A DNA stretch of 64,000 nucleotides from NCBI RefSeq assembly GCF_900475285.1, contig NZ_LS483370.1, positions 3,238,001 through 3,302,000 of the forward strand, given 5' to 3'. Origin of the DNA: Pseudomonas taetrolens. Lineage in GTDB: Bacteria; Pseudomonadota; Gammaproteobacteria; Pseudomonadales; Pseudomonadaceae. Under the pieces are notes generated by a model. It was given only the letters and a program-made list of their open reading frames with translations. It searched no databases and was not told where the DNA came from. The translations under genes were made by a program, and so were the position numbers. This document shows, piece after piece, positions 3,299-7,124 of this stretch. Numbering within the stretch: position 1 is the stretch's first letter; each line of letters begins with the position of its first letter.

Positions 3299-4249
3299 GT
3301 GGAAAAAATCCTTCACCAACCACTGGGCGGTAATGAAATGCCGCGCTTCGCCGGCATCGCCACCATGATGCGGCTACCCCACTTGCAATCGGCCAAAGGC
3401 CTGGACGCCGCGTTTATCGGCGTGCCACTGGATATCGGCACCTCACTGCGGCCCGGTACACGTTTTGGCCCCCGTGAAATCCGCGCCGAGTCGGTCATGA
3501 TTCGCCCCTACAACATGGCAACCGGCGCCGCACCGTTCGACTCCCTGTCGGTGGCTGACATCGGCGATGTGGCAATCAACACCTTCAACCTGCTGGATGC
3601 GGTCCGCATCATCGAAGAGTCGTACCACGAGATTCTTGAGCATGATGTGATCCCCCTGACCCTGGGCGGCGACCACACCATCACCCTGCCGATCCTGCGG
3701 GCGATCCACAAGAAACACGGCAAGGTTGGCCTGGTGCATATCGACGCCCACGCCGATGTAAACGACCACATGTTTGGCGAGAAAATCGCCCACGGCACCA
3801 CCTTCCGCCGCGCCGTGGAAGAAGGTCTGCTGGACTGTGACCGCGTGGTGCAAATCGGCCTGCGAGCCCAGGGCTATACCGCTGAAGACTTCAACTGGTG
3901 CCGCAAACAGGGTTTTCGCGTGGTCCAGGCCGAAGAGTGCTGGCATAAATCCCTGGCACCGCTCATGGCCGAAGTGCGTGAAAAGGTCGGCAATGGCCCG
4001 GTATACCTGAGCTTTGATATCGACGGCATCGACCCGGCGTGGGCACCCGGCACCGGAACCCCGGAAATCGGCGGCCTGACCACGATTCAGGCGATGGAAA
4101 TCATCCGCGGCTGTCAGGGCCTCGACCTGGTCGGGTGCGATCTGGTAGAAGTCTCGCCGCCGTTCGACACCACCGGCAACACCTCATTACTGGGCGCCAA
4201 TCTGCTCTACGAAATGCTCTGCGTGCTGCCCGGCGTCGTGCATCGATAA
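3299..4249 (+). CDS. gbuA: Guanidinobutyrase (agmatinase/ureohydrolase family)
   Basis: A 316-residue manganese ureohydrolase that should hydrolyse 4-guanidinobutyrate to 4-aminobutyrate and urea in the cytosol. The di-metal ligands are visible: His126 in GGDHT, Asp149/His151/Asp153 in HIDAHADVN, and Asp240/Asp242 in SFDIDGIDP, followed by GTGTPEIGG. The N-terminus (LHQPLGGNEMPRFAGIATMM) resembles P. aeruginosa GbuA as I remember it, more than guanidinopropionase GpuA or biosynthetic SpeB. A LysR regulator upstream and a sodium:solute symporter 101 bases downstream support a catabolic role. Agmatinase activity cannot be excluded from sequence alone. Confidence 0.88.
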   Translation: MEKILHQPLGGNEMPRFAGIATMMRLPHLQSAKGLDAAFIGVPLDIGTSLRPGTRFGPREIRAESVMIRPYNMATGAAPFDSLSVADIGDVAINTFNLLDAVRIIEESYHEILEHDVIPLTLGGDHTITLPILRAIHKKHGKVGLVHIDAHADVNDHMFGEKIAHGTTFRRAVEEGLLDCDRVVQIGLRAQGYTAEDFNWCRKQGFRVVQAEECWHKSLAPLMAEVREKVGNGPVYLSFDIDGIDPAWAPGTGTPEIGGLTTIQAMEIIRGCQGLDLVGCDLVEVSPPFDTTGNTSLLGANLLYEMLCVLPGVVHR

Positions 4250-4350: not shown

Positions 4351-5730
4351 ATGGCTTTAGATCTACTGGTCGTCCTTATTTACGCCGCTGCAATGCTAGT
4401 GCTCGGTTACTACGGCATGCGCAAGGCAAAAACCCACGAAGATTACCTGGTCGCCGGGCGCAACCTGGGACCGACACTCTACATGGGCACCATGGCCGCC
4501 ACCGTACTCGGCGGCGCGTCGACCGTGGGCACCGTGCGCCTGGGGTATGTGCACGGTATTTCGGGCTTCTGGCTGTGTGCCGCGCTGGGCTGCGGGATCA
4601 TCGCGCTCAACCTGTTCCTGGCCAAGCCGCTGCTCAAGCTGAAGATATTCACTGTCACCCAGGTCCTGGAGAAGCGTTACAACCCCATGGCGCGTCAGGC
4701 CAGTGCAATCATTATGCTGGCCTATGCGCTGATGATTGGCGTGACCTCGATCCTGGCCATCGGCACAGTGCTGGAAGTGCTGTTCGACCTGCCTTTCTGG
4801 ATCTCGGTGTTGCTCGGCGGCGGTGTAGTGGTGGTGTATTCGACCATCGGCGGCATGTGGTCACTGACCTTGACCGACATTGTCCAATTCGTGATCAAGA
4901 CCGTGGGCCTGATGTTTGTCCTGCTGCCGATCTGCCTGTACCGCGTCGGTGGCTGGGACGAACTGGTGAGCAAGTTGCCCGCGTCCAGCTTCAACTTCAC
5001 CCAGATCGGCTGGGACACGATCATCACCTACTTCCTGATTTACTTCTTCGGCATCCTGATCGGCCAGGATATCTGGCAGCGAGTGTTTACCGCCAAGACC
5101 GCCAGGGTCGCCAAGTACGCCGGCACATTCGCCGGGTTCTATTGCATCCTCTACGGTCTGACCTGTGCATTGATCGGCATGGCGGCGCATGTGCTGCTGC
5201 CTGACCTGGACAACGTCAACAACGCCTTCGCCGCCATCGTCAAGGCATCCCTGCCTGACGGCATTCGCGGGCTCGTGATCGCTGCTGCCCTGGCCGCCAT
5301 GATGTCGACCGCCAGCGCCGGCTTGCTGGCCGCATCCACGGTACTGACTGAAGACCTGCTGCCAAAGCTGCGCGGTGGCAAACAGTCGAGTCTCAAGGTT
5401 AACCGGCTGTTTACTCTGCTGACGGGGTTTGTGGTGCTGGCAATCGCTCTGGTGGTCAATGATGTGATCAGCGCCCTCACCCTGGCCTATAACCTGCTGG
5501 TCGGCGGTATGCTGGTGCCATTGATCGGGGCCATTTACTGGAAACGCGCCACCACCGCAGGCGCCATTACCAGCATGAGCCTGGGGTTTATCACCGCACT
5601 GGTCTTTATGTTCAAGGATGGGCTGGACGCCAATACGCCGATTTACTACAGCCTGGCGGTGGCGTTGATCAGTTTTATCGTGGTCAGCCTGATGAATCGG
5701 CGCCCCGCCCCAGCGGTCAGCGTCGCCTGA
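4351..5730 (+). CDS. Sodium:solute symporter, probable guanidino-compound importer
   Basis: A 459-residue integral membrane protein of the sodium:solute symporter (SSS) family with about 12-13 transmembrane segments. It opens MALDLLVVLIYAAAMLVLGY, followed by the conserved DYLVAGRNLG stretch and TMAATVLGGASTVG. The start is the ATG at 4351, preceded by GGAG; a longer in-frame start would overlap gbuA. The position directly after gbuA and before a good terminator suggests the two form one unit, the symporter importing 4-guanidinobutyrate or a similar compound. The substrate is inferred. Confidence 0.85.
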   Translation: MALDLLVVLIYAAAMLVLGYYGMRKAKTHEDYLVAGRNLGPTLYMGTMAATVLGGASTVGTVRLGYVHGISGFWLCAALGCGIIALNLFLAKPLLKLKIFTVTQVLEKRYNPMARQASAIIMLAYALMIGVTSILAIGTVLEVLFDLPFWISVLLGGGVVVVYSTIGGMWSLTLTDIVQFVIKTVGLMFVLLPICLYRVGGWDELVSKLPASSFNFTQIGWDTIITYFLIYFFGILIGQDIWQRVFTAKTARVAKYAGTFAGFYCILYGLTCALIGMAAHVLLPDLDNVNNAFAAIVKASLPDGIRGLVIAAALAAMMSTASAGLLAASTVLTEDLLPKLRGGKQSSLKVNRLFTLLTGFVVLAIALVVNDVISALTLAYNLLVGGMLVPLIGAIYWKRATTAGAITSMSLGFITALVFMFKDGLDANTPIYYSLAVALISFIVVSLMNRRPAPAVSVA

Positions 5731-5758
5731 TCAATACGTGAGGAATGTTTGTCTCAGC

Positions 5759-5792
5759 GGGTACGACGTCGGAGGTCGTACCCGTTTTTTTT
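5759..5792 (+). terminator. Rho-independent terminator after the symporter gene
   Basis: A perfect 9-bp stem (GGGTACGAC at 5759-5767 with GTCGTACCC at 5775-5783), a 7-base loop, then G and eight Ts. Confidence 0.92.
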
Positions 5793-5865
5793 ACAACTCG
5801 ACCTCCCTTCGGACAAAGGATCAAAAGAAGGCGTAGCGACCCGTGTGCAGCGTTATCCCCCCGCC

Positions 5866-5991
5866 TTACCGGCGACGTTGCGGATGACGACGCGGATCCT
5901 CGACAGGAATCGGCACAGGTTGCAGTGGCGGCTCGATCAAGCCAAGCGCAACGCCAACGTCATGGAGCCAGGTTTGCAATTTGTCTTTCAT
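5866..5991 (-). CDS. 41-residue small protein; sicX/PA1414-like locus
   Basis: A short reading frame, missed at usual length cut-offs, preceded by a very strong ribosome binding site (AAGGGGG six bases before the ATG). The peptide begins MKDKLQTWLHDVGVALGLIE, an amphipathic helix, then a Pro-rich stretch PPLQPVPIPV and a basic tail DPRRHPQRRR. From memory, P. aeruginosa carries the small gene PA1414, re-described as the low-oxygen-induced small RNA SicX that controls anaerobic ubiquinone synthesis, a few genes from gbuA. The locus here is likewise next to gbuA and has an Anr-like promoter. I therefore infer a homologous locus that may act as RNA, peptide or both. Protein identity to PA1414 was not checked. 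Confidence 0.7.
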   Translation of the reverse strand: MKDKLQTWLHDVGVALGLIEPPLQPVPIPVEDPRRHPQRRR

Positions 5992-6045
5992 ATATCCCCC
6001 TTGGGGTAACACCGGCGACGGGAATTCTGTGGTCGCTTCGTACAG

Positions 6046-6086
6046 ATAATAGCCCTAACTCCTACGCAATGCTTGCCGGAAGTCAA
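6046..6086 (-). promoter_or_regulatory. Anr/FNR-type promoter of the small gene at 5866-5991
   Basis: On the minus strand TTGACTTCCGGCAA (6086 to 6073) matches the FNR/Anr core TTGA-N6-TCAA at seven of eight bases. A TATTAT hexamer follows at 6051-6046. With the start of transcription seven bases after that -10, the box is centred near -40.5, within a base of the classic class II activator position (-41.5). No other function for the spacer is apparent. Confidence 0.5.
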
Positions 6087-6118
6087 TGAACTTTAGGCTA
6101 ACGCCTTACAAATCAGAC

Positions 6119-7021
6119 TCAGCCCAATGCGTGAAGTTGCGTGCCCGGGCCGCCGTTTTGCAGCGGCTGCGCTTGCTGTAGCTCGATCCAGGCATTCAGG
6201 TTGGCGCCCATCATGCCTTTTCGCCACATCAGCCATGTTGTGGCTTGTGAAAAAGGTTGTTGCAAAGCATGTACGCTGACATTTTCACGTCCCGGCAAAC
6301 TGGCCAGCATCGAAGCCGGCATCAGCGCCACACCCGAACCGGCTACCACACACGCCAACATGCCTTGATAGGACTCTATCTCCATAACCCTGCCCATGGC
6401 GGCACGATCACTGGCGTACCAGGCCTCAAGACGAGCCCGATACGAACAGCCCTGTCGAAAGGTGAACACCTCCAGGCCCTGCACATCCCGAGCACGGGTG
6501 ATCGGTGAGTGATCCAGATCACTGATCAGTACCAGGTGCTCCTCGCAAAACTCAATACCGTCCAGCCCGGCCAGCTCCAGTGGCCCATCCACCAGCGCGG
6601 CGTCCAGACGGCCGGTCAGCAAGCCTTCAAGCAACTCCCCGCTCGGAGCCGATTGCACATGCAGGTTCACCGCCGGATAAGTCCGGTGATAGTGCGCCAG
6701 CAACCCTGGCAAATGAATTGCTGCCGTACTGTACATCGTGCCCAGCGTGAACTTGCCAGACGGCACTCCACCTTGCACGGCAGCCAGGGCTTCGTCGTGG
6801 AGAGCAAACAGGCGCGCGGTGTAATCCAGCAACACCTGACCGGCCGGGGATAACTGCAAGCGCTGACGCTCGCGCATGAAGAGTTCGATGCCCATCTGCT
6901 CTTCAAGTTGCTTCAGACGGGTCGACAGGTTGGAAGGGACTCGATGCAGACGCTCAGCCGCACGGGTGACAGAACCTTCTTCGGCCACGGCCTGGAAAAT
7001 CCGCAATTGACTGAACTCCAC
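6119..7021 (-). CDS. LysR-family transcriptional regulator (PtrR-like)
   Basis: A 300-residue LysR protein. I place the start at the GTG at 7021 (MEFSQLRIFQAVAEEGSVT) because GGAG lies seven bases upstream; a TTG four codons earlier is less likely. The helix-turn-helix spans about residues 3-60 (VTRAAERLHRVPSNLSTRLKQ). The RVPSNLSTR recognition helix is of the type seen in the Pseudomonas regulator called PtrR, linked by comparative genomics to putrescine use. It is divergent from an MFS transporter 103 bases away, its likely target. The effector is unknown and the PtrR assignment is tentative. Confidence 0.85.
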   Translation of the reverse strand: MEFSQLRIFQAVAEEGSVTRAAERLHRVPSNLSTRLKQLEEQMGIELFMRERQRLQLSPAGQVLLDYTARLFALHDEALAAVQGGVPSGKFTLGTMYSTAAIHLPGLLAHYHRTYPAVNLHVQSAPSGELLEGLLTGRLDAALVDGPLELAGLDGIEFCEEHLVLISDLDHSPITRARDVQGLEVFTFRQGCSYRARLEAWYASDRAAMGRVMEIESYQGMLACVVAGSGVALMPASMLASLPGRENVSVHALQQPFSQATTWLMWRKGMMGANLNAWIELQQAQPLQNGGPGTQLHALG

Positions 7022-7124
7022 GATATTCTCCAAAACAGAACAAGTATCTCACTATTATTCATTTTTAAAGAAAGTCAATAACCTCTAGCCTGACGGTCTC
7101 TGATTTCTCCCAGGAACCCGCAGC

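Follow-up and report, generated by a model that had tools for sequence, protein, structure and literature searches.

The closest described counterpart of the locus analysed here is PA1414/sicX of Pseudomonas aeruginosa. In the portions of the published study drawn on here, ubiUVT is the described target of the SicX small RNA in P. aeruginosa, expression of PA1414 is reported to depend on Anr in this species, and PA1414/sicX is stated to have no homologues outside P. aeruginosa, the underlying search being a blastn search with thresholds of more than 90% identity and coverage (PMC10247376). The same portions describe short transcripts at the 5' end, across the annotated start, as well as a terminator inside PA1414. 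Start-codon and frame-shift mutants of P. aeruginosa kept function, and a truncated 5' allele was enough for anaerobic growth (PMC10247376); as far as these portions go, the protein is therefore not needed for the anaerobic growth phenotype in P. aeruginosa. In excerpts of further papers, PA1414 is listed in a table on Anr-regulated expression and, without an oxygen mark, in a table of high-ranking biofilm transcripts. Other literature passages report a 14-fold decrease of sicX after glyoxal and treat the PA1413/sicX neighbourhood and the abundance of the sicX transcript.

The window, that is, the whole 64-kb stretch of Pseudomonas taetrolens DNA analysed here, contains a locus of the same type. 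Its constituents are the following.

3299..4249, plus strand: gbuA-like guanidinobutyrase/agmatinase gene (PF00491; agmatinase models over cut-off)
4354..5730, plus strand: sodium:solute symporter gene (PF00474), the downstream neighbour, facing the small frame; the start is an ATG picked by us
5866..5991, minus strand: PA1414-family small protein gene, 41 codons and a stop (MKDKLQTWLHDVGVALGLIEPPLQPVPIPVEDPRRHPQRRR), identified by its NF041729 match and dN/dS
5996..6002, minus strand: ribosome binding site AAGGGGG, read from the sequence, with CCCC just upstream and a possible mini-hairpin
6015..6036, minus strand: small leader hairpin GCGAC...GTCGC, with covariation over 30 leaders
6038..6040, minus strand: predicted transcription start, 6-8 nt past TATTAT
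6046..6051, minus strand: -10 element TATTAT, invariant in four of four clade members
6073..6086, minus strand: Anr/FNR-type box TTGAC-TTCC-GGCAA (TTGACTTCCGGCAA), proposed from half-site conservation and spacing
6119..7033, minus strand: PtrR-type LysR regulator gene (NF047711, 456 bits against a cut-off of 400), the upstream neighbour, in the position of PA1413

The small frame (5869-5991, minus strand) starts with an ATG at 5991, is closed by a stop codon at 5866-5868, and is separated from the LysR gene by a gap of 127 nt. Its 41-aa product matches the NCBIfam model NF041729 (PA1414_fam) with 77.2 bits (cut-off 28, E = 5e-22), residues 1-41 being aligned to profile positions 1-42 of 43. 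The frame is thus real and far above chance, and the sequence-only reading, which had proposed a PA1414-like gene at this place, is confirmed by the similarity of the 41 residues: the locus holds a PA1414 homologue. Family and window peptide are alike in sequence, locus and length (41 aa versus 43 model positions) and differ in individual residues only, for example PPLQ in the window and PPRLQ or PPRMQ in the P. aeruginosa branch. A Pfam-A search with the peptide gave no match, although the label PF28105 is attached to related database proteins.

The gene order LysR regulator, peptide, symporter and gbuA is the same in the window and in P. aeruginosa PA7. The gene at 3299..4249 is presumably gbuA itself, a name we assign from synteny. 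It lies at the same locus as the peptide gene, as the sequence-only reading had it, and does not adjoin it: the two are 1.6 kb apart with one symporter gene in between. Among 80 named loci, gbuA is found in 64 and a symporter homologue in 65. PtrR is located directly upstream (within about 300 nt) of the peptide in 43 of the 80; no PtrR match was found in 34, including 13 of the 14 loci that carry the SicX core described below. No Rfam family matched above its gathering score across the window. On the plus strand, a strong terminator-like stem with a T run is located at 5756-5786, 3' of the symporter gene.

The family is not restricted to P. aeruginosa, as the sequence-only reading had suspected. 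At E <= 0.001, PA1414_fam was found in 174 of 293 genomes, every carrier belonging to the genus of the window, where it is present in 174 of 179 genomes (171 above the cut-off); the five remaining members of the genus yield only short fragments with E-values of 0.006-0.25. Across the Pseudomonadaceae, 299 of 398 genomes in 11 of 19 genera have a match (295 above the cut-off); searches of two further genera gave matches in 25 of 25 and 53 of 56 genomes, compared with none of 14 control genomes. As judged by these profile matches, the spread contradicts the statement that there are no homologues outside P. aeruginosa; the published search would miss the present relatives because of its thresholds of identity and coverage. 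The weak matches include a divergent group reading MLAKLQEQLQALLQALGL. These PA1414-like peptides come from the same genus (L304-L310), read either MLAKLQEQLQALLQALGL or MLVKLQEQLQ..., and score near or below the family cut-off; the sequences GTGGCAGGAGGTCGTACCC and TTGGCAGGAGGTCGTACCC upstream of them are well kept. In three genomes (G124, G010 and G173) the family match includes a TAA and spans 39 positions only, resulting in a shorter Arg-rich tail.

Selection on the frame was assessed using 244 loci minus one (L243, whose start codon is out of the expected place), that is, 243 loci with 203 distinct frames and 128 distinct peptides. The loci are mostly best matches and chosen places with close relatives over-represented, and their groups follow our own sequence rules, not taxonomy; the identification of g89 as Pseudomonas sensu stricto and of g95 as Stutzerimonas is likewise drawn from named loci of the same type. 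With pairs of pS >= 0.6 excluded, in-frame dN/dS amounts to 0.073 in the fluorescens type (n = 110), 0.131 in the putida type (n = 21), 0.151 in the g92 type (n = 10), 0.223 in the g95 type (n = 27), 0.256 in g89 (n = 24) and 0.382 in the others (n = 11). A control restricted to frames of the commonest length (58, 19, 6, 12, 18 and 7 per group) gives 0.05-0.27 in frame as opposed to 1.1-4.7 in the two shifted sense frames, and in the largest group codon positions 1, 2 and 3 differ by 0.07, 0.04 and 0.39, respectively. One antisense frame is also low (0.14-0.43), as is expected because its degenerate position coincides with the same sites. Low values in frame together with high values in the shifted frames indicate that the frame is selected as a protein, so that the earlier suggestion of an encoded peptide holds.

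For this peptide, AlphaFold2 predicts with moderate confidence a helix at residues 2-15 and nothing else (27 sequences, mean pLDDT 73.5). The sequence-only reading had described an amphipathic N-terminal helix; the helix is retained as a prediction, whereas the amphipathicity is not, since the hydrophobic moment of residues 2-19 of the window peptide is reached by 25% of shuffles. Values for three other peptides are matched by 5, 43 and 55% of shuffles. Amphipathicity was therefore dropped as evidence.

We now turn to the promoter. In class II promoters of the FNR/Anr type, a box with the half-sites TTGAY and RTCAA near -41.5 is combined with a -10 element. In the window, 21 nt separate TTGACTTCCGGCAA from TATTAT, which places the centre of the box about 40.5 nt from a start near 6039. 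The box agrees with the degenerate consensus at 9 of 10 positions and with the strict consensus TTGATNNNNATCAA at 7 of 10. The pattern TTGAY-N4-RKCAA occurs once in the 64-kb window, with 1.24 occurrences expected by chance; the box accordingly rests on position and conservation only. The four members of the window's clade agree in 9 of 10 half-site positions, in 1 of 4 positions of the box spacer and in all 6 of TATTAT, compared with 22 of 40 positions of the leader from -54 to -15. The genome also encodes an FNR homologue with 52% identity to E. coli FNR and an N-terminal Cys cluster (HCKDCSLAPLC). The proposed class II promoter resembles known promoters of this class in the box centre relative to the predicted start, the 21-nt gap to the -10 element and an FNR/Anr homologue encoded in the genome; its box (TTGAC-N4-GGCAA) is weak. 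The Anr-type promoter claimed earlier is plausible from its spacing and from the conservation of the half-sites; the box taken by itself is at chance level. Just upstream of the box, TTAGCCTAAAGT at 6090-6101 is invariant in all four clade members (the window and L222-L224).

Counting boxes of at least 9/10 between -200 and -20, with shuffled expectations that ignore relatedness, Anr-type boxes exceed expectation in 5 of 6 groups. Such a box is present in 16 of 21 putida-type loci (0.57 expected), near -128 and perfect in 12 (0.07 expected), in 9 of 10 loci of the g92 type and in 3 of the 11 others. In the fluorescens type it is found in 15 of 110 loci (2.2 expected), four of which are the clade of the window and seven of which have it at -195 to -198; in the interval searched it is absent from the other 95 and from all 27 Stutzerimonas-type (g95) loci. 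Anr control is likely in the clade of the window, and it is not family-wide, because most fluorescens-type and all Stutzerimonas-type loci are without a good box.

The predicted leader was compared across relatives. The motif AAGGGGG at 5996-6002, put forward by the sequence-only reading as the ribosome binding site, is confirmed on the sequence. The arrangement CCC-N2-6-GGG at the ribosome binding site is found in 130 of 131 unique leaders from two groups of the window's genus, compared with 16% of shuffles, and its stem shows no covariation; in the window (5996-6006) it is a possible mini-hairpin hiding the ribosome binding site. For the leader hairpin, a set of 30 leaders has 18 cells changed on both sides versus 9.8 in shuffles (reached by 0 of 500 shuffles); 5 pairs are changed on both sides, a number that 89 of 500 shuffles reach. 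One of the alignments (A4) contains a Stutzerimonas leader, L158. Taken by itself, the leader of the window is no more stably folded than its shuffles (z -0.24). At the 3' end, the stem AAGGCG (5828-5833)/CGCCTT (5862-5867) noticed earlier is in place and overlaps the stop codon, its folding does not exceed that of shuffles (z +0.35), and on this value it was rejected as a terminator. A simple consensus scan of the minus strand from 5700 to 6150 found no terminator-like site.

A different leader is found in the P. aeruginosa branch. Each of the 24 distinct branch leaders has an Anr-type box (TTGATTCAGGTCAG or a near variant; 9/10 positions; 0.23 expected) at a distance of 153-165 nt from the ATG. 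A -10-like hexamer, TAGTCT, TAGGCT, TAAGCT or TAAAGT, follows at 22 nt in 23 of the leaders and at 23 nt in PA7. The predicted transcription start is some 115 nt ahead of the ATG and also upstream of the GTG discussed below. The hexamers TATTCT and TACTCT were considered as the branch promoter and rejected for two reasons: they belong to a conserved RNA hairpin, in its 3' arm, and the Anr-type box is 22 or 23 nt ahead of another -10-like hexamer further upstream. The leader contains two structured elements ahead of the conserved ATG, a hairpin whose 10-nt loop (GAGAGUGGGA) is invariant and a strong second stem; a 92-nt portion from PA7 folds at z -3.94. Over the 24 leaders 93.7% of cells pair and 6 of 27 pairs change on both sides, five of them in the second stem; the covariation score is reached by 0 of 500 shuffles, with the structure derived from one of the aligned sequences, which favours it in the slide control. 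Between genomes, the difference is 0.004 in alignment columns 39-57 and 0 in the loop, as against 0.197 at third codon positions. Exact copies of the SicX core GCGGAGAGTGGGACGCC are confined to the P. aeruginosa branch and number 38 among the 243 loci: 24 come from a genus search of 25 genomes (25 loci, L075 being the exception) and 14 from the named set of 80. Part of the core motif went into the grouping of the branch, which makes within-group counts circular; the fair figure is 24 of 25. In all 179 other unique loci, the window included, the best match to the core has at least 5 mismatches of 17.

This long leader with its invariant hairpin core is most likely the RNA described as SicX. A consensus scan found a terminator (second stem and T-rich tail) in PA7, where shuffles yield 0.4; the same scan found none in P. 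nitroreducens, and most sister leaders are without a T-rich tail. On the P. aeruginosa side, the leader thus probably gives a short terminated RNA. Such an RNA is doubtful for the sister species; there the structured leader may continue into the frame. The peptide frame of P. nitroreducens is followed by a strong stem and a T run (L136, 8133-8192; z -3.45), as if the transcript ended there.

The branch also bears on the annotation of PA1414. P. aeruginosa PA7 has a GTG in frame with the conserved ATG and 33 codons upstream of it, giving 77 codons and a stop (234 bp). Adding these 33 extension codons to the conserved 44 aa reproduces exactly the 77-aa protein recorded for P. aeruginosa, and the 44-aa form has a database record of its own, named PA1414 family protein; from the length, the annotated start in PAO1 and PA14 appears to be a GTG of the PA7 type. 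Stop codons interrupt the 33 extension codons in 12 of 24 distinct branch leaders, and, counted from the ATG, the leader core is spread over the three frames, with 7, 6 and 11 leaders. The extension is therefore not a conserved coding stretch, and the annotated start of the 77-aa form is probably wrong. SicX therefore appears to be the leader of a conserved protein gene whose start was probably mis-annotated. The published transcripts and terminator, as far as the consulted text describes them, fit the leader reading provided that the GTG is what was annotated as the start. In that case the published 'protein or RNA' test may have been aimed at a start codon 33 codons too far upstream; if so, the conserved protein may have a low-oxygen function of its own.

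The described target of SicX was not found in the window genome. Neither UbiU nor UbiV was detected there, the sole U32 match being TrhP. With all candidates scored, the UbiV model gave this cross-match only, and 11 of 20 genomes in the same search scored above the cut-off; an E. coli UbiV query, run without a control, also found none. Prediction of targets in ubiUVT leaders is consequently moot for this species. In 60 members of the genus chosen from the genus list, deliberately including the five without PA1414_fam, UbiV exceeds the cut-off in 17 (15 of 55 with and 2 of 5 without the family). UbiU exceeds it in at least 153 of 398 genomes (five candidates scored per genome), a count from which no absences are drawn. 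The PA1414 protein family is thus kept where the described target of SicX was not found. A duplex fold of SicX and ubiU without constraints did not stand out from shuffles, and the longest stretch of complementarity between SicX core and ubiU leader is at chance in ten genomes (21-100% of shuffles; PA7 53%); neither result speaks against the published SicX-ubiU pairing, because accessibility is outside both models. In one genome (G412, L276), a perfect Anr-type box (TTGATCCCGGTCAA) is seen by eye upstream of ubiU. In several sister genomes ubiU closely follows another frame, and no such box was seen by eye in the 130 nt viewed.

Codon-level comparison and gene order establish that the frame is selected as a protein and that the locus is syntenic with PA1414, and we hold with good confidence that the window contains a PA1414-family protein gene, probably Anr-controlled, and not a SicX RNA. 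Anr, active at low oxygen, would bind at 6073-6086 and, in class II geometry, activate transcription from TATTAT; the resulting leader of about 48 nt would carry the small hairpin and the strong ribosome binding site. The 41-aa product, predicted to consist of the N-terminal helix (2-15), a proline-rich linker (PPLQPVPIP) and an Arg-rich tail, may act in low-oxygen physiology without UbiU/UbiV, as a small partner protein. The protein gene could also be real and not Anr-controlled in the window species, with another signal driving its promoter. The chance-level frequency of the box in the 64 kb and the lack of a good box in most fluorescens-type and all Stutzerimonas-type loci are in line with this; the half-sites kept around a changing spacer in all four clade members, the class II spacing, the encoded FNR/Anr homologue and the Anr dependence of PA1414 reported in the available text of PMC10247376 make a chance match on the whole unlikely. 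We are similarly hesitant about a dual-function transcript, a protein mRNA whose short leader is also a regulator or is regulated at the ribosome binding site: the near-universal CCC-N-GGG (130 of 131 leaders) and the covarying hairpin just upstream point to it, and with a CCC/GGG stem that lacks covariation and a leader fold no more stable than shuffles, we consider it rather improbable.

Compared with the SicX RNA of P. aeruginosa, the window shares the syntenic locus and the Anr-type promoter and differs in lacking the core, in that no terminator-like site was found in the scan and no UbiU/UbiV in the genome, in a predicted leader of only about 48 nt, and in that its conserved product is a protein. 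The 'sicX-like' RNA of the sequence-only reading is not upheld on these grounds. Same locus, promoter type and the covariation of the leader hairpin across the genus would suit a SicX-type regulatory RNA that base-pairs with mRNAs in the window species too, the frame being incidental or secondary; five or more mismatches to the 17-nt core in all 179 unique loci outside the branch, the missing terminator-like site (minus strand, 5700-6150), the undetected UbiU/UbiV and codon-level selection on the peptide leave it a very low probability. A type I toxin-like or membrane-inserted peptide is suggested by the small size and the hydrophobic stretch VGVALGLI, and is hardly credible for a predicted helix of 14 residues, short for crossing a membrane and followed by a proline-rich and Arg-rich tail, in a gene present as one copy in nearly every member of the genus, like a core gene.

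A possible further reading is a two-product sicX/PA1414 locus: an old, family-wide and often oxygen-regulated small protein gene, from whose leader the SicX sRNA would have arisen in Pseudomonas sensu stricto, the T-rich terminator being confined to the P. aeruginosa side. We regard this history as evenly balanced between true and false. The comparison reveals a conserved protein gene behind SicX, a probably wrong start in the 77-aa annotation, and a SicX RNA element common to 24 genomes, one per species, of one Pseudomonas branch. The protein family as such is already known, its 44-aa form being named in databases. In the literature covered, most of whose papers mentioning PA1414 were searched by term only, we found none that describes the protein, corrects the start or presents sicX as its leader. 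The role of the protein, SicX pairing besides ubiUVT, and the way in which a leader becomes a regulatory RNA are thereby made testable. We note finally that one genome (G003) contains two PA1414_fam copies near opposite ends of its single contig (C1:4770912-4771037, L299, and C1:6049-6156, L316); their leaders are near-identical, and the second copy diverges after the first six residues.
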